Shown: positions 1,076 through 14,405 of the stretch, in pieces
Numbering within the stretch: position 1 is the stretch's first letter
Layout: each line of letters starts with the position of its first letter
NCBI GenBank assembly: GCA_017936665.1
Contig: JAGBFB010000037.1
Span: forward strand, 1 to 64,000
Direction: 5' to 3'
Length of the DNA stretch: 64,000 nucleotides
Source of the DNA: Spirochaetaceae bacterium
GTDB lineage: Bacteria > Spirochaetota > Spirochaetia > Treponematales > Treponemataceae
The notes under the pieces: generated by a model
The model's database searches: none
Told to the model about the DNA's origin: nothing
The model's input: the letters and a program-made list of their open reading frames with translations, nothing else
Made by a program: the position numbers and the translations under genes

Positions 1076-2341
1076 ATGAAAAAGATTATCTGTATTTTAT
1101 TTTTTGTTTTATCTGTTTTTGCAATAATTGGTTGTAATAAAGCAGATGGTGATGTTGGTAGAGTAGAAATTTGGCATACTTATAACGGAGCACAAGCTGA
1201 ATTTCTTGAGATGATGGCAAAAGAATTTAATGCTTCACAAAAAGATTATGAAGTTGTTATTCTTTCTCAAGACTACTCTGGATTTAACGATACAGTTTAC
1301 AATGCTGTTGCAAACGGAATTGGACCTAGTATCATTTTTAATTTTGCTTCTACTGCTGTAGATTATATTCAAGCAGATTTAGCAGTGGATATTACTGACT
1401 ACATCAAAGAAGATGTAAAGTCTGGTGATACAACAATGCAAGATGTAATTGATTCCCTTCCAGAAGCAATGAAAGTTGATGTTATGGGATTTGCAGATGG
1501 AGGAATTTATTATCTTCCTGGATGTACTACAGGTCCAGTTTTCTTCTACAATAAAACAATCTTTGATGAACTAAAATTAAATCCTCCTACTACATGGGAA
1601 GAACTTGAAAGCGTAAGTAAAACAATCAAAGAAAAAAAAGGAATCCCAGGATTTTTGTCTGACAGTATCATCGATACATTACAAGCATTGATTATGCAAA
1701 ACGGTTTAGGTTACATTGATGTTGGTGCAAAAAAAGTTACTTTCTGTAATGATAAACTTGTAGAAATTTTTGAATGGTACAAAGATTGTTGTAAAAAAGG
1801 ATATTTTGCTTTTAACACAGTTGGAAGTTATTCATCTGACGATTTAGGAAACGGTGATGTTGCTTCCTTCGCTGGTTCTTGTGTAAATGACCAATATATT
1901 TTAATGGTTAATGGTGAACTTGGAATGGCTCCTTGGATTGCAAAGGCAAGTGAATCATTTTATACTGCATGGAATCGTGGTCCTATCTTCTTAAAGAGAA
2001 ATGCTAAAGCTGATAAGGGTGCTTACGAATTTATTAAATTTTTCATGTCACCAAAAAATAATGGAAAGTGGGCAAAAATAAATTCTGCAATAGCTCCTTA
2101 CGGAACAACTGAAGCAGATGAAGATTATCAAGAATACATTAATACACTTCCTGAAAATTCAGCTCTTGCTTGTGTAAGAAAAAATTTAGCTTTGTCTGGT
2201 TCTTTTCCTAACATTCCTGGAAGTTCACAAGTAAGAAGATTGATTGAAGAATACATGAACAATGTTGTTGACGGAAAATTAACTGCACAAGAAGCAGTTA
2301 GTCAACTTGAAGTTGCATGTAATAACGCATTGAACAAATAA
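1076..2341 (+). CDS. ABC transporter extracellular solute-binding lipoprotein (family 1, UgpB/sugar type)
   Basis: The 421-residue protein begins with a lipoprotein signal ending in IIGC (lipid-anchored Cys about residue 20), then VEIWHTYNGAQAEFLEMMAKEFN, the usual opening of family 1 binding proteins for sugars or glycerol-3-phosphate. WNRGPIFLKRNAKADKGAYEFIKFFMSP matches the ligand-cleft region. It should capture solute in the periplasm for the two permeases downstream. The ATPase gene starts 21 bases after its stop, so it heads an operon. The substrate (glycerol-3-phosphate, glycerophosphodiester or oligosaccharide) cannot be fixed from sequence. No strong ribosome site precedes the chosen ATG. 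Confidence 0.88.
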   Translation: MKKIICILFFVLSVFAIIGCNKADGDVGRVEIWHTYNGAQAEFLEMMAKEFNASQKDYEVVILSQDYSGFNDTVYNAVANGIGPSIIFNFASTAVDYIQADLAVDITDYIKEDVKSGDTTMQDVIDSLPEAMKVDVMGFADGGIYYLPGCTTGPVFFYNKTIFDELKLNPPTTWEELESVSKTIKEKKGIPGFLSDSIIDTLQALIMQNGLGYIDVGAKKVTFCNDKLVEIFEWYKDCCKKGYFAFNTVGSYSSDDLGNGDVASFAGSCVNDQYILMVNGELGMAPWIAKASESFYTAWNRGPIFLKRNAKADKGAYEFIKFFMSPKNNGKWAKINSAIAPYGTTEADEDYQEYINTLPENSALACVRKNLALSGSFPNIPGSSQVRRLIEEYMNNVVDGKLTAQEAVSQLEVACNNALNK

Positions 2342-2362
2342 AAATAAGAGAAGGTTTAGCAC

Positions 2363-3472
2363 ATGAAGGTTACATTAAAAAACGTAACAAAAAAATTTGG
2401 TTCTACTGTAGCCGTTAATGATTTTTCTGCAACCTTTCCTGATGGACATTTAATTTGTTTGTTAGGTCCATCTGGTTGTGGAAAATCAACTGTGCTAAAT
2501 ATCCTTTGTGGAATTTTAGATGTAACATCTGGGCAAGTTTTTTTTGATGACGATGATGTTACATCTCTTTCACCAGAGCAAAGAAATATCGGAATGGTAT
2601 TTCAAAACTATGCTTTGTATCCTCACTTAACTGTTTTAGAAAATATAGCATTCCCTTTAGAAGTTCAAAAAGTAAATAAAAAAATTAGAATTGAAAAAGC
2701 AAAAGAGATTGCAGAACTTGTACATGTAGAAAATTTATTACATCGTTTTCCTGGAGAACTTTCTGGTGGTCAACAACAACGAGTTGCAATCGCACGAGCA
2801 TTGATTAAAAATCCAAAGTTACTTTTAATGGATGAACCTCTTTCAAACCTTGACGCAAGATTACGACTTGAAATGCGAGAAGAAATTCGTCGAATTCAAA
2901 TTGAAACTGGAGTTACTACAATTTTTGTAACTCATGACCAAGATGAAGCAATGTCAATTTCAGATAGTATAATTTTAATGAAGGATGGAGTTCTTGCACA
3001 AGAAGGTTTATGTACTGAATTATATAATCAACCTAATTCAAAATTCGTAGCAGACTTTTTAGGAAATCCTCCTATCAATGTAATTGAAGGATATTTAGAA
3101 AAAAATAAATTTATTTTTGATGATAATTCTGGAAGTATTTTTTTAGAAAATATGACAGATTTAAATATGCCAAATATGACAAAACTTTTTGAAAACAAAA
3201 AACTTACACTTGCCATTAGACCAGAAAGTTTTATTCTTGACAAAATAATTTCTAAAGATGACACAGATAAATATGACAAAAATCTATTTCAGGTTTTGTC
3301 AGTTTTTAAACAAACAAGAGAAGAACTTGCACATATCAAAATTGGAACAAAAGAACTTTCAATTTTTTTACCAGATGATAGTGATGTAAAAAAAGATGAC
3401 AAAGTCATATTATCAATAAAGCAAAAAGGATGTTTTATTTTTAATGCACAAACTGGGGAACGGTTAAAGTGA
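2363..3472 (+). CDS. ABC transporter ATP-binding protein (UgpC/MsmK/MalK type)
   Basis: This 369-residue ATPase energises the importer. It shows Walker A GPSGCGKST, Q-loop VFQNYALYPH, signature LSGGQQQR, Walker B LLLMDEPLSNLD and switch His in FVTHDQ. A C-terminal OB-fold/TOBE-like extension of about 130 residues is typical of carbohydrate importers, though it is divergent here. Many sugar importers share one ATPase encoded elsewhere; here a dedicated ATPase lies between the binding protein and the permeases. Its GTGA end overlaps the next start codon, implying translational coupling. Confidence 0.93.
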   Translation: MKVTLKNVTKKFGSTVAVNDFSATFPDGHLICLLGPSGCGKSTVLNILCGILDVTSGQVFFDDDDVTSLSPEQRNIGMVFQNYALYPHLTVLENIAFPLEVQKVNKKIRIEKAKEIAELVHVENLLHRFPGELSGGQQQRVAIARALIKNPKLLLMDEPLSNLDARLRLEMREEIRRIQIETGVTTIFVTHDQDEAMSISDSIILMKDGVLAQEGLCTELYNQPNSKFVADFLGNPPINVIEGYLEKNKFIFDDNSGSIFLENMTDLNMPNMTKLFENKKLTLAIRPESFILDKIISKDDTDKYDKNLFQVLSVFKQTREELAHIKIGTKELSIFLPDDSDVKKDDKVILSIKQKGCFIFNAQTGERLK

Positions 3473-4401
3473 ACAAGATGTCAGATTTAAATAAGACAAA
3501 ATTAATTATGACAAAACAAAATATGACAAAGATAGAACCATTTTTGTATCTTCTTCCTTTTATAATTGGTATTTTGATTTTTACACTTTATCCAGTTATA
3601 AATGTATTTTTACTTTCTTTTAAAGATGATTATAATTATTTAAGAAACAGTTTTTCAGGTTGGAATTTAGAAAATTATAAAACAGTTTTAACTGATCCTA
3701 AATTTATTCAAAGTATAATTAACACTACTTTGTATGTTTTATTTGTTGTTCCAATTAGTACAGCCTTAGCAATTATAATTGCAAATTTTTTAAATCAAAA
3801 AATAAAAGGAAATGCAATTTTTCAAACAGCCTATTTTATGCCAATGGTAACATCAATTACTGCTGTGGGTTTGATTTGGAGATTGATGTACAATAAACAA
3901 TATGGAATTATAAATTTTATTTTGTCAAAATTTGGAATTGAAAAAATTGGTTGGGTTGTAGATTCTAAGTGGTCATTAGTTGCTTTAATCATTTTTGGAA
4001 TTTGGAATATAATGCCTTTCACAATTATTTTATTAATTTCTGGATTACAAAATATTAATGAAGTTTATTATACTGCTGCAAAAGTTGATGGAGCAAAACC
4101 AATAAAAATATTTTTTAGAATCACAGTTCCAATGTTATCTCCTACAATTTTTTTAGTTTGTATTGTAAATACAATTTCTAGTTTTAAAGTTTTTTCAGAA
4201 TTGTATCCCTTGTTTAATGGAAAGCCTGGACCATATTATAATTTGTACACAGTTGTTTATTACATTCGATATGCAATGATGGAAAAACGAGAATATGGAT
4301 ATGCTGCTGCCGCTGCTGTAATTTTATTTTTCTGTGTAATGATTTTTACTTTTATTCAACTTGCCATAAAACGAGGAATGAAAAAAAGAGGATTGCAATA
4401 A
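3469..4401 (+). CDS. ABC transporter permease, UgpA/MalF-like
   Basis: This 310-residue inner-membrane permease has about six hydrophobic segments and the EAA-loop AAKVDGAKPIKIFFRITVPM, which contacts the ATPase. The GTG start overlaps the ATPase stop by four bases and follows a GGGGAACGG ribosome site. An internal ATG at 3478 is an alternative. Order and size match the first permease of CUT1-type importers. Confidence 0.9.
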   Translation: MNKMSDLNKTKLIMTKQNMTKIEPFLYLLPFIIGILIFTLYPVINVFLLSFKDDYNYLRNSFSGWNLENYKTVLTDPKFIQSIINTTLYVLFVVPISTALAIIIANFLNQKIKGNAIFQTAYFMPMVTSITAVGLIWRLMYNKQYGIINFILSKFGIEKIGWVVDSKWSLVALIIFGIWNIMPFTIILLISGLQNINEVYYTAAKVDGAKPIKIFFRITVPMLSPTIFLVCIVNTISSFKVFSELYPLFNGKPGPYYNLYTVVYYIRYAMMEKREYGYAAAAAVILFFCVMIFTFIQLAIKRGMKKRGLQ

Positions 4402-5228
4402 TGAAAGCAAAAAAAATTATTAAACAAAGTTTTATTTATTTGTTTCTCATTTGTGGTGCTTTAATGATGGTCTTTCCTTTTTTGTGGATGATTCTTAGTG
4501 CATTTAAAAATCATGCAGAGATTATTCAGTTTCCTCCAAAAATTTTTCCGTCAGAATTTTCTTTTAAAAATTTTATTAAAGCATTTTCAATGGCGCCTTT
4601 TGGAAAATATTTTTTTAATTCAGTAATTGTAATGATTGCATCTGTTGTTTGTACAACCATAACTACAATTCTTGGAGCCTTTGCTTTTTCACGATTAAAA
4701 TTTCCAGGAAGAGAAATTATTTTTTCTGCTTTACTTTCTTTAATGATGATTCCTTTTGAAATGCTCATTATTACAAATTATACAACCATTGTAAAAATGG
4801 GATTGTACAATACACTACCTGCTTTAGTTTTACCTTTTGTAAGTAGCATTTTTTATACATACATTTTAAAAAACTTTTTTGATACAGTACCAGATAATTT
4901 ATATAACTCTGCAAGAATTGATGGTGCAACAAACTGGAAATACCTTTGGCGAATTTTAGTTCCAATGGCAAAACCTTCTTTGTACACAATTATTTTGTTA
5001 AATGCTTTGGCAAGTTGGAATTCTTTTATGTGGCCGCTTTATATCACTTCGGATTCAACTTCAAGAACTCTTCCTTATGGATTACAAGTTTTTACAACTG
5101 AAGCTGGTTCTTATCCAGAATTGTTAATGGCTGCATCTACAGTTATTGTTCTTCCGATGATAATTTTATTTATCTTTGCAAGAAAATATATTGTAAGTGG
5201 TGTTTCTCGCGGTGGACTAAAAGGATAA
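4401..5228 (+). CDS. ABC transporter permease, UgpE/MalG-like
   Basis: This 275-residue second permease of the importer has six predicted membrane segments. The EAA loop reads SARIDGATNWKYLWRILVPM, and the ending VSGVSRGGLKG is a common MalG-type C-terminus. Its ATG shares a base with the stop codon of the preceding permease. It forms the heterodimeric channel with that protein. Confidence 0.9.
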   Translation: MKAKKIIKQSFIYLFLICGALMMVFPFLWMILSAFKNHAEIIQFPPKIFPSEFSFKNFIKAFSMAPFGKYFFNSVIVMIASVVCTTITTILGAFAFSRLKFPGREIIFSALLSLMMIPFEMLIITNYTTIVKMGLYNTLPALVLPFVSSIFYTYILKNFFDTVPDNLYNSARIDGATNWKYLWRILVPMAKPSLYTIILLNALASWNSFMWPLYITSDSTSRTLPYGLQVFTTEAGSYPELLMAASTVIVLPMIILFIFARKYIVSGVSRGGLKG

Positions 5229-5230
5229 TT

Positions 5231-5797
5231 ATGCAAAAAAAATATTTTGAATTTACAGTTGGCGAAAAAATTCCACAAGAAGTAATTGATGGAAAAATGA
5301 AAATAAAAAATCGTCTTGCAATAAGAGGAGTTTTATTTTTCAAAAATAAATTATTAATGATTAAAACTTCAAAAGGCGATTATAAATTTCCAGGTGGTGG
5401 AAAAGAAAAAAATGAAGAGGATTTTCAAACTTTAAATCGTGAGTATGAAGAAGAAACTGGTTTTGCAAATTTAATAAATGATGAAAGTCAAATAGAATTG
5501 ATTGGAAAAACTTTTACTCAAAATATTGATACAGAAAACGAAAATGAATTTTTTATTATGGAAAGTAGATATTATCTAGTAAAAATTTCTGAAGAAGAAT
5601 TTTGTAAAATAAAAAATGTTGGTCAAGATTTAGATGATTATGAAAAAGAATTAAATTTTAAATATGAATTTGTTTCAGTGAAAGATGCGTTAGAAAAAAA
5701 TAAATCCTTGTTAAAATTTTCTGATAAAGAATGTGTAAATTTTTGGGTTGAACGAGAAACTTTGGTTTTAGAAAAATTATTAATGGAAGAAATATGA
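5231..5797 (+). CDS. Nudix hydrolase
   Basis: The 188-residue protein carries a perfect Nudix box (G-x5-E-x7-REYEEETGF) around residues 55-78, which binds the metal used to hydrolyse nucleoside diphosphates linked to another group. The gene starts two bases after the permease stop and overlaps the next gene by four bases, so it is transcribed with the importer. The link to transport is unclear. It may process an imported nucleotide-linked substrate or may be a housekeeping passenger; the substrate is unknown. Confidence 0.9.
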   Translation: MQKKYFEFTVGEKIPQEVIDGKMKIKNRLAIRGVLFFKNKLLMIKTSKGDYKFPGGGKEKNEEDFQTLNREYEEETGFANLINDESQIELIGKTFTQNIDTENENEFFIMESRYYLVKISEEEFCKIKNVGQDLDDYEKELNFKYEFVSVKDALEKNKSLLKFSDKECVNFWVERETLVLEKLLMEEI

Positions 5798-6498
5798 TAG
5801 AATTTATTCAGAAAAAACTTTTTGAGTTTCAGGATTTAAAATATAAAGAGTTTCATTCTAAGTTAATGCCAACCATAAATCAAAATTCAATAATTGGTGT
5901 TAGAGTTCCTGTTTTACGAAAATTTGCAAAAGAAGTTTTTAAAGAATATTCTATTGAAGAATTAAAACCGTTTTTAAAAAATCTTCCACACAAATATTAT
6001 GAAGAAAATAATATTCATGCTTTTTTGATTGAACAAATAAATGATTTTGAACTTTGTCTTTTTGAATTAGAAAAATTTTTACCATTCATTGATAACTGGG
6101 CAACTTGTGATATGTTTTGTCCTAAGGTTTTCAAAAAAATTGCAAAGAAAAATCCAGAGGAAATTCTTTTACCTTTGATAAAAAAATGGATTTCTTCAAA
6201 TGAAATTTATACTGTAAGATTTGGAATTGGAATTTTAATGAGATTTTTTCTTGATGAAAAATTTGATTCATCTTATTTGGATTTAGTTTCTTCTATAAAT
6301 TCTAACGAATATTACATCAATATGATGAGAGCTTGGTTTTTTGCAACAGCTTTAACAAAACAATATGAAGCAACTTTGCCAATTATAGAAAATAACATTT
6401 TAGATTTATGGACTCATAATAAAACAATTCAAAAAGCAATTGAAAGTTATCGAATTTCGGCTGATACAAAAAACTACTTGCGTAAACTAAAAAAATGA
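5794..6498 (+). CDS. DNA alkylation repair protein, AlkD-like
   Basis: This 234-residue all-helical HEAT-repeat-like protein opens MIEFIQKKLFEFQDLKYKEF and has IIGVRVPVLRKFAKE, the AlkD signature. NWATCDMF supplies the W-x3-D pair and MMRAWFFATALTK the second Trp that line the active site of Bacillus AlkD. AlkD excises 3-methyladenine and 7-methylguanine without flipping the base. It is the last gene of the operon, overlapping the Nudix gene by four bases. Some AlkD-like homologues lack glycosylase activity, but the key residues look present here. Confidence 0.88.
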   Translation: MIEFIQKKLFEFQDLKYKEFHSKLMPTINQNSIIGVRVPVLRKFAKEVFKEYSIEELKPFLKNLPHKYYEENNIHAFLIEQINDFELCLFELEKFLPFIDNWATCDMFCPKVFKKIAKKNPEEILLPLIKKWISSNEIYTVRFGIGILMRFFLDEKFDSSYLDLVSSINSNEYYINMMRAWFFATALTKQYEATLPIIENNILDLWTHNKTIQKAIESYRISADTKNYLRKLKK

Positions 6499-6514
6499 AG
6501 TAAAATAACATTAT

Positions 6515-6632
6515 CCACAAGGGAGTAGCTAGCACAATAAATTGTGTTTACAACGCCGTCAGTACGATTTGCAAAAAATCCGGTTTTGTAATTAAGTAGC
6601 GAGACTTGTCGCAATATTTTAGCGGGCAAGTC
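6515..6632 (+). promoter_or_regulatory. yybP-ykoY (Mn2+) riboswitch with mutually exclusive downstream hairpin
   Basis: P1 pairs ACAAG (6517-6521) with CTTGT (6605-6609). L1 reads GGGAGTAGC, P2 is CACAAT/ATTGTG, the conserved GCCGTCAGTACGA and CCGG blocks follow, and L3 reads TAGCGAGAC, all in the order of the yybP-ykoY consensus. Bases 6603-6612 (GACTTGTCGC), which include the 3' strand of P1, can instead pair with 6622-6632 (GCGGGCAAGTC), giving a competing hairpin as expected of an expression platform. No U-run follows, so it is not a standard terminator. It lies 68 bases before the first antiporter gene. Confidence 0.85.
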
Positions 6633-6699
6633 GTATCCTTATCAAAAATCAATAAGAAAATATAACTTGTCTCAAAAAAATCTAGAAAATGGAGTATTT

Positions 6700-7698
6700 A
6701 TGGATTCTATTTTAAATTTGATTGGATTTGCAAACTTTGGTACAGTTTGGCAAATTATTTTACAAGTTATCATTTTGGTAGTTGGTTTTGCTTTCCTTGT
6801 GAAAGGTGCAGACTGGTTTGTTGATGGTGCTGCTGGAATTGCTACAAAATTTGGTATTCCTCAATTAGTGATTGGTTTGACAATTGTTGCAATGGGAACT
6901 TCAGCTCCAGAAGCTGCTGTTAGTATTACGGCTGCTTTTGATGACAATGCAGGTATCACAATCGGAAATGTTGTTGGTAGTAATATTTTAAACATCTTAA
7001 TTATTTTAGGAATTACTGCTTTAGTAAATCCAATTAAAGTTCAAAAATCATCCCAAGTAATTGATATACCTGTTGCATTTTTTGCTTCTGTTTTGTTACT
7101 TATTTTAGGTTGGGACGGAAATATTAGTCGTTTAGACGGAATTATTATGTTAGTAATTTTTGTTGCATATTTAGTATATTTGTTCTGGGATGCAAAACGA
7201 CCAAAAAAATTAGATTCATCAACTGAAGTTGCAGAAGAAAATGTTGAAACAAAAAATGTTTCTTTACCAAAATCCTTATTTTTTACAGTTATAGGTTTAG
7301 TTTTAATTGTTGCAGGAAGTAATTGTGTTGTAGAAAGTGCAACCTTTATTGCAGAAAAAGCAGGTTTAAGTCAAAGATTTATTGGTTTAACAATTGTTGC
7401 TTTAGGAACTTCACTTCCTGAATTGTTTACTTCTGTAACTGCTGCAATGAAGAAAAATTCAGATATTGCTGTTGGTAACATTGTTGGAAGTAACATTTTT
7501 AACATCTTCTTTATCGTTGGACTTTCTGGATTGATTATTCCTGTTCCATTTGAACCTCTTTTTAGATTTGATACAATCATTTCTGGTGTGGCAGTTCTTA
7601 TTTTGTTATTATTCTCACTTCCTAAGAAAAGACTTTCAAGACTTACTGGAATAATCTTCTTGATTTGTTATGCTGTTTACTTTTACATGATTTGGTAA
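6700..7698 (+). CDS. CaCA-family Ca2+/Na+ antiporter (YrbG-like), first of two paralogues; possible Mn2+ exporter
   Basis: This inner-membrane antiporter of 332 residues has about ten helices and two inverted alpha-repeats: AMGTSAPEAAVSITAA near residue 60 and ALGTSLPELFTSVTAA near residue 230, each followed by VGNxxGSNIxNI. These hold the cation-binding acidic residues. I chose the ATG at 6700 because GGAG precedes it and the neighbour's start MDxILNLIGFANF aligns; a TTG 33 bases upstream is also in frame. The yybP-ykoY riboswitch in its leader points to Mn2+ control, so export of Mn2+ is a plausible role alongside Ca2+. Confidence 0.88.
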   Translation: MDSILNLIGFANFGTVWQIILQVIILVVGFAFLVKGADWFVDGAAGIATKFGIPQLVIGLTIVAMGTSAPEAAVSITAAFDDNAGITIGNVVGSNILNILIILGITALVNPIKVQKSSQVIDIPVAFFASVLLLILGWDGNISRLDGIIMLVIFVAYLVYLFWDAKRPKKLDSSTEVAEENVETKNVSLPKSLFFTVIGLVLIVAGSNCVVESATFIAEKAGLSQRFIGLTIVALGTSLPELFTSVTAAMKKNSDIAVGNIVGSNIFNIFFIVGLSGLIIPVPFEPLFRFDTIISGVAVLILLLFSLPKKRLSRLTGIIFLICYAVYFYMIW

Positions 7699-7750
7699 TA
7701 TAATTTTATTTATAAATATAAATTTGTATGTTTGTTGGAGATTTTGATTT

Positions 7751-8743
7751 ATGGATATAATTTTAAACTTAATTGGATTTGCTAATTTTAATTTAGTTTG
7801 GCAAATAATTTTGCAAATTGCAATTTTAGCCCTTGGATTTGTTTTTCTTGTAAAAGGTGCTGATTGGTTTGTAGATGGTGCTGCAAGTATTGCAACAAAA
7901 TTTGGTATTCCACAATTGATTATTGGTTTAACAATCGTAGCTATGGGAACATCTGCCCCAGAAGCTGCTGTTAGTATTACGGCTGCAGCAGGTGGTAATG
8001 CAGATATTACAATTGGAAATGTTGTTGGTAGTAATATTTTGAATATTTTTGTTATTCTTGGACTTACGGCTTTAGTAAATCCAGTTGTAGTTCAAAAATC
8101 TTCGTTAATAGTTGATATTCCTGTTGTAATTGGAATTACAGCAATGATTTTTGTTATGGGCTTAGATGGTTCAATTTCAAGATTTGATGCAGTTATCATG
8201 TTGATTGTTTTAGCTTCTTATTTACTATATTTAATTTGGGATGCAAAACGCTCAAAAGCATTAGGCCTTGAAACAAATGAAGATTCTGAAGAAATAAAAA
8301 ATCTTTCTTTACCAAAATCTTTAATTTTTACAGTGATTGGTTTAGCTTTAATTGTTGTAGGAAGTAATTGTGTAGTTGAAGGTGCAACTTTTATTGCAGA
8401 AAAAGCAGGTTTAAGTGAAAGATTTATTGGACTTACAATTGTTGCTCTTGGAACATCTTTGCCAGAATTATTTACATCAGTAACAGCTGCAATGAAGAAA
8501 AATTCTGATATTGCTGTGGGAAATATTTTGGGAAGTAATATTTTTAACATTCTTTTTGTAGTAGGATTATCAGGTTTAATTATTCCTGTTCCATTCCAAA
8601 GTGCATTTAGATTTGATACTATTGTTTCTGGAATTGCTGCAATTTTGTTGTTACTTTTCTGTCTTCCAAAAAAACGACTTTCAAGAGTTGCTGGAATTAT
8701 TTTCTTGATTTGTTACGCTGTATACTTTTACATGATTTGGTAA
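7751..8743 (+). CDS. CaCA-family Ca2+/Na+ antiporter (YrbG-like), second paralogue
   Basis: The 330-residue protein is a close paralogue of its upstream neighbour, with the same two GTSxPE alpha-repeats, the same FLICYAVYFYMIW ending and most substitutions in the acidic central loop (residues about 170-185). A good TTGGAG site precedes the ATG. Only 52 bases separate the two genes, so a tandem duplication with co-transcription behind the Mn2+ riboswitch is likely. The pair might form a heterodimer or differ in cation preference; sequence does not tell. Confidence 0.88.
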   Translation: MDIILNLIGFANFNLVWQIILQIAILALGFVFLVKGADWFVDGAASIATKFGIPQLIIGLTIVAMGTSAPEAAVSITAAAGGNADITIGNVVGSNILNIFVILGLTALVNPVVVQKSSLIVDIPVVIGITAMIFVMGLDGSISRFDAVIMLIVLASYLLYLIWDAKRSKALGLETNEDSEEIKNLSLPKSLIFTVIGLALIVVGSNCVVEGATFIAEKAGLSERFIGLTIVALGTSLPELFTSVTAAMKKNSDIAVGNILGSNIFNILFVVGLSGLIIPVPFQSAFRFDTIVSGIAAILLLLFCLPKKRLSRVAGIIFLICYAVYFYMIW

Positions 8744-10187: not shown

Positions 10188-12086
10188 ATGAGTAAACAAA
10201 ATGATTTTAAACCATTCATTCCTGCTGATAGAATTGTACCAGAATTAACAATTACTTCTATTGTAGTGGGTTTGATTTTAGCTGTTGTCTTTGGAGCTGC
10301 AAATGCTTATCTAGGACTTAGAGTTGGTATGACTATTTCTGCTTCTATTCCAGCTGCTGTTATTTCTATGGGAATTATTCGTGTTTTATTAAAACGAAAT
10401 TCTATCCTAGAAAATAATATGGTTCAGACAATCGGTTCTGCAGGTGAATCCTTGGCTGCAGGTGCTATTTTTACATTGCCTGCTTTATTTATGTGGGCTG
10501 CTGAAAATCCAGCAATAAAAAATCCTTCTTTTATTACTATTGCTACATTGGCTTTATTAGGTGGAATTTTAGGTGTTCTTTTTATGATTCCATTACGAAA
10601 AGCTTTAATTGTAGAAGAACATGGAGTTTTGCCTTTCCCAGAAGGAACTGCTTGTGCAGAAGTTCTTTTAGCTGGGGAAGAAGGTGGAGATAAATCTAAA
10701 ATTGTTTTTTCAGGATTGGGACTTGCTGCGGCTTACAAATTTATTACAGACGGATTAAAACTTTTCCCTTCTGAAATAACTTGGGAATTAAAATCTTTAC
10801 GAACTGGATTTGGGCTAGATGTTCTTCCTGCTTTAACTGGTGTTGGATATATTTGTGGAACAAAAATCTCTTCATATATGTTTGCTGGTGGAATTGTTGG
10901 TTGGTTTGTTTTAATTCCACTTATTACATTCTTTGGACTTGATAGAGTGATTGCTCCTGCTGTTGCACCTATTTCAGAATTAGGTTCTGCTGGCGTTTGG
11001 AGTTATTTTATTCGATACATTGGAGCAGGGGCAGTTGCAACTGGTGGTATCATTAGTTTGATTAAGTCATTACCTTTGATTGTAAATACTTTTGCTAAAT
11101 CTATAAAAGGTTTAGGAAAATCATCAAATTCACAAGAAAGAACAGATAAAGATTTGCCAATGACAGTTGTTCTTGTTGGAAGTTTAGTTATCGCACTTTT
11201 GATTTGGTTGATTCCTACAGTTCCTGTAACTTTCTTAGGTGCTTTAATGATTGTTGTTTTTGGATTTTTCTTTGCAACAGTTTCTAGCCGAATGGTTGGT
11301 CTTGTTGGTTCATCAAACAATCCTGTTTCTGGAATGATTATTGCAACTTTGCTTGTTGTAACTTTGATTCTAAAAGCAACTGGTTTTACTGGTTACGAAG
11401 GAATGGCATCTGCAATTTGTATTGGAACAATTATTTGTATTGTAACTGCTATGGCAGGTGATACATCACAAGATTTGAAAACTGGTTACATTGTAGGAGC
11501 AACTCCTGAAAAACAACAAATTGGTGAAATTCTTGGAGCCATCATTTCTGCCTTTGCAATTGGATTGATTATGTACTTGTTAAATGCTGCTTGGGGATTT
11601 GGTTCAAAAGAAATTCCAGCACCACAAGCAACACTTATGAAACTTGTTGTAGAAGGTGTAATGGGAGGAACTTTACCTTGGGCTTTATTACTTTGTGGAG
11701 TTGGTATTGCCCTTGCAGTAGAAGTTATTGGAATTCCTGTTTTGCCATTTGCAGTAGGTTTATATCTTCCAATTTACTTGTCTGCTCCAATCTTCCTTGG
11801 TGGATTAATCAGATGGTTTGTAGAAAAGAAAACTGCTAAGAAAGAAGCAGAACAAAAAGAAACAGTTGAAAAAGGTATTCTTTATTGTTCAGGATTGATT
11901 GCTGGTGAAGGTGTTATCGGTATGATTCTTGCAATTTTAGCTGTAATTCCTTTTGCTAACGGAACCTTATCTGATGCAATAAATTTAAATTATCCTCTTG
12001 GACAAATAGGAAGTATCATCTTTTTCATATTGATAATTGCATCAATGTTCTATTTTTCTTTTGCAAAATCAAAAAAGAGTAAATAA
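10188..12086 (+). CDS. OPT-family oligopeptide transporter
   Basis: The 632-residue polytopic protein has about 15 hydrophobic segments. It carries the NAYLGLRVGMTISASIPAAV motif near the N-terminus and GTACAEVLLAGEEGG, both hallmarks of the bacterial OPT family. These import small peptides or metal-chelate ligands with cation coupling. An AGGA site precedes the ATG and a TATAAT lies at 10150-10155. The PqqD-like gene begins two bases after the stop. Confidence 0.92.
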   Translation: MSKQNDFKPFIPADRIVPELTITSIVVGLILAVVFGAANAYLGLRVGMTISASIPAAVISMGIIRVLLKRNSILENNMVQTIGSAGESLAAGAIFTLPALFMWAAENPAIKNPSFITIATLALLGGILGVLFMIPLRKALIVEEHGVLPFPEGTACAEVLLAGEEGGDKSKIVFSGLGLAAAYKFITDGLKLFPSEITWELKSLRTGFGLDVLPALTGVGYICGTKISSYMFAGGIVGWFVLIPLITFFGLDRVIAPAVAPISELGSAGVWSYFIRYIGAGAVATGGIISLIKSLPLIVNTFAKSIKGLGKSSNSQERTDKDLPMTVVLVGSLVIALLIWLIPTVPVTFLGALMIVVFGFFFATVSSRMVGLVGSSNNPVSGMIIATLLVVTLILKATGFTGYEGMASAICIGTIICIVTAMAGDTSQDLKTGYIVGATPEKQQIGEILGAIISAFAIGLIMYLLNAAWGFGSKEIPAPQATLMKLVVEGVMGGTLPWALLLCGVGIALAVEVIGIPVLPFAVGLYLPIYLSAPIFLGGLIRWFVEKKTAKKEAEQKETVEKGILYCSGLIAGEGVIGMILAILAVIPFANGTLSDAINLNYPLGQIGSIIFFILIIASMFYFSFAKSKKSK

Positions 12087-13889: not shown

Positions 13890-14405
13890 TTAACCAAAAT
13901 CATAATCTGGTGGAGAATATTTTCTGTTTGCAAGTTCATTATTCAAAATGTATAAACCTGTATTATTTGAGCCAAAAAGTTCCATTCTATCAATTAAGGT
14001 GTAAGCGTTTAATTCTTCTTCACCCTGTTCTTTTATAAACCAGTTTAAAAAATCCATAGATTTATAATCTTTATATTCCATAGCAACAGAATAAATTTTG
14101 TTTATTAATGAAGTTACATATTCTTCATGACGTAAACCTTCTTCAAGAGGATCCATAAATTCAACTAATTTAATGTCAGGAGCTCCAATGGCTTCAAGTT
14201 TTATTTTTGCATTATTGTTTTGTAAATATTGATAAAACAACATTGCATGATCCATTTCTTCTTTTGCTTGAATTTTATACCAAGATGCAAATCCTGATAA
14301 ACCTTTTGACTCAAAGAAATTTGCAAAATCTAAATACAGATAAGCAGAAAACATTTCTTTGTTAATTTGAGTGTTCATTAAAGAAGCAATCTTTTCGTGT
14401 AACAT
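13890..14405 (-). CDS. ftnA: Ferritin
   Basis: This 171-residue non-haem ferritin has the ferroxidase residues in place: Glu in NKEMFSAYLYLDFANFFESKG, the E-x2-x-H pair in AKEEMDHAMLF, Glu in LRHEEYVT and Gln in FIKEQGEEE. Bacterial ferritins oxidise Fe2+ and store Fe3+ inside a 24-subunit shell. It is transcribed opposite to the FAD enzyme gene and converges on the terminator at 13823. A palindrome at 14439-14455 lies in its upstream region. Confidence 0.93.
   Translation of the reverse strand: MLHEKIASLMNTQINKEMFSAYLYLDFANFFESKGLSGFASWYKIQAKEEMDHAMLFYQYLQNNNAKIKLEAIGAPDIKLVEFMDPLEEGLRHEEYVTSLINKIYSVAMEYKDYKSMDFLNWFIKEQGEEELNAYTLIDRMELFGSNNTGLYILNNELANRKYSPPDYDFG

Follow-up and report, generated by a model that had tools for sequence, protein, structure and literature searches.

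The leader and the two antiporter genes

The window analysed here is a 64-kb stretch of DNA (64,000 nt) from a 2.58-Mb genome, probably that of a Treponema-like gut spirochaete. Near its start, a leader of ~200 nt lies between an alkD-like gene (5794-6498) and two consecutive antiporter genes. Inspected by eye, this leader carries ACAAGGGAGUAGC, CGUCAGUACG and AGCGAGACUUGU, the hallmarks of a yybP-ykoY aptamer. The features of the locus are:

6513-6612, + strand: predicted Mn2+-riboswitch (yybP-ykoY class) aptamer in a three-way-junction form (model R2, 37.6 bits; model R3, 105.2 bits; covariation)
6517-6521, + strand: P1 5' strand ACAAG (strand 1), whose partner is 6605-6609, with compensatory changes seen in a set of 24 sequences
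6522-6528, + strand: L1 5' strand GGAGUAG, invariant in 24/24 aligned aptamers; 3' strand of L1 at 6601-6604
6533-6546, + strand: P2 hairpin; all five pairs change on both sides in the mixed set
6549-6590, + strand: P3 arm (P3.1, 6549-6558/6581-6590; P3.2, 6566-6570/6576-6580), backed by covariation
6559-6565, + strand: predicted L3 metal-binding loop UCAGUAC (alignment; L3 sequences in PMC6754395)
6591-6597, + strand: unpaired linker where helix P4 would otherwise stand (sequence, alignment)
6603-6632, + strand: predicted anti-P1 hairpin, formed by strand 2 (the P1 3' strand) and strand 3 (GCGGGCAAGUC); shaped like a terminator but lacking the U-run
6624-6672, + strand: predicted strand 3:4 pairing, in which the anti-P1 3' arm can pair instead with strand 4 (ACUUGUCU, 6665-6672; z = -3.58, p = 0.007; folding z = -2.46)
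6691-6694, + strand: Shine-Dalgarno (SD) sequence GGAG of CaCA1
6700-7698, + strand: calcium:cation antiporter 1 (CaCA1), 332 aa, TIGR00367, PF01699 twice; homologue of NCX_Mj (E = 4e-44)
7751-8743, + strand: calcium:cation antiporter 2 (CaCA2), 330 aa, tandem paralogue and sister of CaCA1 in the tree

The original prediction of two tandem CaCA paralogues was confirmed. The two proteins are 77% identical, score 273.8 and 267.6 with TIGR00367 (cut-off 179.65), each contain two Na_Ca_ex repeats, which places them in the CaCA superfamily, and align with NCX_Mj over almost their entire length. With the YrbG equivalog model (PRK10734) they reached 231 and 234.8 bits against a cut-off of 432. In the alpha repeats they carry GTSAPE and GTSLPE, the motifs found in ordinary Na+/Ca2+ exchangers, so Mn2+ specificity cannot be read from the sequence. 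The ribosome site had been described as far downstream; this is correct with respect to P1, which ends ~80 nt before it, but not with respect to the gene, as the site lies directly before the ATG at 6700.

A second riboswitch ahead of CaCA2 was ruled out, since the 52-nt gap is too short for an aptamer of this size and there was no second match. A weak promoter noted by eye (TTGCGT, 6478-6483; 17 nt; TAAAAT, 6501-6506) was absent from the promoter scan and is not claimed. Elsewhere in the window, a ferritin-like ORF was noted by eye (13890-14405, - strand), with an oligopeptide-transporter-like ORF nearby (10188-12086).

Identification of a divergent member of the Mn2+ riboswitch class

A covariance model, R2, was built from 14 leaders of MntP, GDT1 (UPF0016) and distant CaCA genes in relatives, drawn from loci with sub-threshold matches to RF00080. 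No close CaCA leader was included in this training set and only one row, L047, came from a CaCA gene (35% identical). R2 matched positions 6513-6614 with 37.6 bits (E = 3.2e-9), the sole match in the 64-kb window at E ≤ 10, and it also recovered all four orthologous leaders found by DNA search (see below) and nothing else in 93 kb. The E. coli mntP riboswitch was scored by R2 at 38.2 bits (E = 2.3e-10). The element thus shares homology in both sequence and structure with the leaders of established Mn genes. Another model, R1, was set aside because its automatic consensus lacked P3.

The original prediction had named a scan for RF00080 as its check. RF00080 gave no match in the window at its gathering cut-off, none at E ≤ 10 on positions 6400-6800 (401 bases) and none in a search of the whole genome. 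However, the same model (Rfam 15) left the validated mntP riboswitch of E. coli (L263, 2462-2558) short of its cut-off, at 41.6 bits where 45 are required, did not report E. coli alx (L264) at E ≤ 0.01 and reported none of the Clostridial elements tested. Since E. coli mntP and the Clostridial elements were also missed, the negative result is uninformative here, and the Rfam scan, which fails on its positive control E. coli mntP, was dropped as the deciding test. The RF00080 cut-off is an unsound criterion for excluding an element from the yybP-ykoY class.

Covariation backed P1, P2 and P3. Across five close leaders, 95.5% of cells paired and seven pairs had changed on both sides, a result matched by 0/500 shuffles. 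In a set of 24 leaders from spirochaetes and Bacillota, 93 two-sided cells were observed versus 27 expected, and sliding the pairing partners abolished this signal. Unconstrained RNAalifold recovered P1, with A-U, C-G, U-A and G-C as alternatives, and this compensated helix competes with the hairpin downstream of it.

The loops were conserved as well. L1 has the conserved 5' strand, in which A6524 corresponds to the A-minor adenosine (A10), a role described previously (PMC6754395), and a 3' GAGA strand. In published aptamers, Mn2+ is contacted by five phosphates and by the N7 of an invariant adenosine, in the loops UCA41AUUC of Lactococcus lactis and ACA48UACU of Xanthomonas oryzae (PMC6754395). 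By alignment, A6561 corresponds to A41 and A48, and the 7-nt L3 that holds it sits between P3.1 and P3.2. L3 of the window, which differs from the L. lactis loop at two of seven positions, is by this alignment of the L. lactis type, with its invariant adenosine at 6561. MntP-type leaders in the same family have exactly the X. oryzae loop, ACAUACU. The alignment placed the 6591-6597 linker where a four-way junction would have P4; as P4 is missing from the aligned E. coli mntP too, we did not treat this helix as a defining feature. Taken together, the R2 match, the covariation and the conserved L1 and L3 bear out the predicted class, and on these sequence comparisons the element, though divergent, truly belongs to the Mn2+ riboswitch class.

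An anti-P1 hairpin that has lost its U-run

Immediately at the end of the aptamer, GACUUGUCGC (6603-6612) pairs with strand 3 (6622-6632) at a predicted -13.2 kcal/mol (z = -3.5). This anti-P1 hairpin was found in 6/6 spirochaete orthologues and in 33/36 related CaCA leaders, nearly all of them Clostridial. A U-run (≥6 U in 8 nt) followed the hairpin in all related CaCA leaders examined (33/33). Among the spirochaetes, G330 had seven U in 8 nt after the hairpin and G059 six, compared to at most four in any 8 nt after the hairpin in the window. The missing U-run had therefore been correctly noted, and we read the window hairpin as an eroded terminator whose U-run was lost. The accompanying claim that the mechanism is not the textbook one was not upheld: the layout is that of a textbook switch between P1 and a terminator, with the 3' strand of P1 serving as the 5' arm of the competing hairpin. 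Because the U-run is lost while the textbook geometry is retained, the output step must be called uncertain, not demonstrably different. The orthologous leaders, whose U-runs range from strong through weak to absent, could provide a natural series for a shift from intrinsic termination to another output.

Strand 4 adds a further predicted pairing. In the mostly Clostridial CaCA leaders, 3:4 pairing exceeded that of shuffled sequences in 16/33 cases (p < 0.05; combined p = 1e-15, ignoring relatedness), and among spirochaete CaCA leaders it was significant in 4/5 (combined p = 4e-6, again ignoring relatedness). No significant excess was seen where the pattern matched leaders of genes other than CaCA (p = 0.07), nor in a set of 20 unrelated terminators (p = 0.40). 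The 1:2, 2:3 and 3:4 pairings are, by sequence, mutually exclusive. A downstream strand complementary to the 3' arm of the hairpin may be a new detail.

Occurrence of the leader among relatives

We examined the genes that accompany this leader in other genomes. It also stands ahead of CaCA orthologues in five other spirochaete genomes (G039, G059, G078, G081 and G330). A DNA search of the family located the leader in four of these, G039 (82% over 103 nt), G059, G081 and G078, where the CaCA orthologues directly behind it share 64-78% identity. Aptamers related to it also lie ahead of CaCAs from a clade further removed (42-44%; L088, L089, L091) and from another group at ~35% (L047, L087). Sub-threshold RF00080 matches occurred in 17 other genomes of the family, and the loci examined lay ahead of MntP, GDT1 or distant CaCA genes; 30 sampled R2 matches stood before MntP. 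One genome, G039, which is among the nearest relatives in the family, carries an aptamer before a PMR1-type P-ATPase, the next, 2.9 kb further on, before CaCA, and a third, on another contig, before MntP.

Beyond the spirochaetes, a core-pattern scan of named genomes returned at least 119 stretches, mostly from Lachnospiraceae and other Clostridia, and 80 loci were read. CaCA-like genes followed in 38/80 (one being G039 itself and one a Kiritimatiellae MAG) and P-type ATPases in 11/80. The leader was thus kept before CaCA genes at no fewer than 37 other loci, nearly all in Clostridia. A Lachnospiraceae contig (L182) carried two such aptamers separated by ~3 kb, the gene behind one being MntP and behind the other CaCA. 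In a quick tree, for which SH-aLRT values and no bootstrap were calculated, the leader-bearing spirochaete CaCAs were nested among Clostridial ones (SH-aLRT 96) and the two CaCAs of the window were sisters (SH-aLRT 94). This suggests, as a lead only, that the leader-CaCA unit moved from Clostridia into spirochaetes, and that the gene was duplicated later in the window lineage.

No leader was detectable at close CaCA orthologues in G045, G024 and G052, or at a second G039 copy; CaCA therefore does not require Mn2+ control. The host genome also encodes MntP, without the switch, so CaCA is not its sole candidate Mn exporter. As targets of the riboswitch in the host genome, MntP was ruled out because its gene has no such leader and GDT1 because it is absent.

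Several further loci were recorded during these searches. At L104 (1730-1829; G017:C25), an R3-type aptamer of 52.5 bits precedes genes for an ABC ATPase and MacB/FtsX-like permeases (1948-5214), an unusual target for a Mn2+ riboswitch. At L106 (5167-5279, - strand; G011:C42), a second, partly degraded aptamer copy precedes a UvrD-like helicase gene, the other copy in this genome preceding MntP. In L182, the Mn-type aptamer ahead of MntP (1513-1617), which has a textbook terminator, overlaps a sub-threshold match to RF02617 (SSRC10), hinting that SSRC10 (Streptococcus sRNA 10) is possibly related to the Mn2+ riboswitch. In the G078 CaCA leader (L102, 3285-3379), the aptamer 3' strand AGCGAGACU shows perfect complementarity to AGUCUCGCU, the stretch with the ribosome site, so that orthologue may be switched directly at translation.

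Proposed mechanism and alternative readings

We consider it probable, at roughly 0.8, that the two-gene CaCA operon is controlled by an ON switch, namely a divergent yybP-ykoY Mn2+ riboswitch built on a three-way junction and carrying an L. lactis-type L3, the antiporters being most likely Mn2+ exporters. At this locus, Mn2+ binding, Mn2+ export, the direction of the switch (ON) and its output are inferred. Mn2+ would dock L1 against L3 and so stabilise P1 (strands 1:2). Strand 2 would then be unable to form the anti-P1 hairpin with strand 3, and the operon would be expressed. When Mn2+ is absent, the 2:3 hairpin would form and expression would fall. As the output at the eroded terminator, we consider weak or Rho-assisted termination, or an effect on translation, more likely than strong intrinsic termination. 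Strand 4 would pair with strand 3 only after passage of the polymerase and may lock the ON fold following read-through.

A broader, more tentative proposal, which we rate as doubtful, is that in Clostridia and spirochaetes the CaCA-type Mn2+ riboswitches work as ladders of four strands, with 1:2 forming P1, 2:3 the terminator or anti-P1 hairpin, and 3:4 a last rung, in which a segment beyond the U-run captures the terminator 3' arm after passage of the polymerase and locks the ON state. With the U-run lost in the window lineage, control may have moved from intrinsic termination to the ladder itself, in a Rho- or translation-linked manner.

The output could also be purely translational, with the ribosome site masked in the absence of Mn2+ either by strand 4 or by the 3' strand released from P1, and this we regard as a realistic possibility, albeit one on which we would not settle. 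The lack of a U-run in the window would suit such a switch, as would the precedent of E. coli mntP, whose riboswitch is translational and Rho-linked (PMC11647493). Complementarity between the aptamer 3' strand and the ribosome site extends over ~10-11 pairs in G078 and G039 (p = 0.002 each) and is weaker in G081 (p = 0.058), but the same test was negative for the window (p = 0.92), G059 and G330, and the hairpin has the geometry of related bacterial terminators. Pairing of the P1 strand with the ribosome site, strong in G078 and G039 but absent here, was therefore not adopted for the window locus. Folding with ViennaRNA, in which P1 was enforced by explicit pairs, gave SD accessibility or masking that differed in direction between orthologues, and because of this inconsistency no folding-based claim on translation is made.

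An improbable alternative concerns the cargo: the aptamer would sense Mn2+, but the antiporters would contribute to a Mn-stress response by transporting Ca2+ (or Na+/Ca2+) instead of exporting Mn2+. The scores of the proteins as calcium/sodium antiporters, their near full-length alignment with NCX_Mj and the leaderless orthologues are all compatible with Ca2+ transport. Yet BP3410 of Bordetella pertussis, which belongs to this superfamily, is a Mn exporter that Ca does not induce (PMC8546581), and in related genomes and in Clostridia aptamers of this class stand ahead of MntP, GDT1 and PMR1-type ATPases. These two lines also bear out, as a reasoned expectation, the prediction that the antiporters handle Mn2+; by analogy with BP3410, CaCA1 and CaCA2 most likely export it. 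By extension, gut spirochaetes and Clostridia contain a set of proteins, now labelled 'calcium/sodium antiporters', that would be re-annotated as probable Mn2+ exporters. Finally, a chance or convergent likeness, with a structured leader that is no Mn2+ riboswitch or has changed its ligand, would account for the negative RF00080 result and the two L3 differences from L. lactis but is very improbable given the R2 match, the covariation, the recovery of E. coli mntP by R2 and the same L3 pattern before P-type ATPases in Clostridia.

Comparison with known systems

The pairing of a Mn2+ riboswitch with a CaCA gene is already known, because B. pertussis BP3410 has been published: a yybP-ykoY element mediates induction of this CaCA protein by Mn but not by Ca, and the functional protein exports Mn (PMC8546581). 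The locus in the window shares with it a Mn2+ riboswitch upstream of a calcium:cation antiporter, there a Mn exporter. In comparison, BP3410 belongs to another phylum, is a single gene, has an aptamer that Rfam detects (E = 8.5e-15) and its transcript is reported to stop inside the leader without Mn (PMC8546581).

The L. lactis yybP-ykoY element resembles that of the window in L1 (GGAGUAG), in an L3 of the UCANUNC type with the invariant adenosine and in the competition of P1 with a downstream hairpin (PMC6754395, PMC11087558); in L. lactis the P1.1 3' strand doubles as the 5' arm of the terminator (PMC11087558). It differs in possessing P4, and hence a four-way junction, an intrinsic terminator and yoaB (a P-type ATPase) as its gene, whereas the window lacks P4 and the U-run and its genes encode CaCAs. 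The E. coli mntP riboswitch, close in R2 score (38.2 versus 37.6 bits) and likewise without P4 in the alignment, has an L3 of the X. oryzae type, a translational/Rho output and control over mntP. The current Rfam model misses a large subclass of Mn2+ riboswitches, and at its cut-off even this E. coli element.

Clostridial CaCA leaders (such as L172, L197 and L182) share the aptamer subtype, mostly without P4, the anti-P1 hairpin and frequent 3:4 pairing, and the CaCAs downstream of them are 40-62% identical. Unlike the window leader, they have kept the U-run (≥6 of 8), and most have a GAGAC..GUCUC extension of the hairpin. The locus thus adds to a known pairing, and its lost U-run and 3:4 strand are the parts of most interest.
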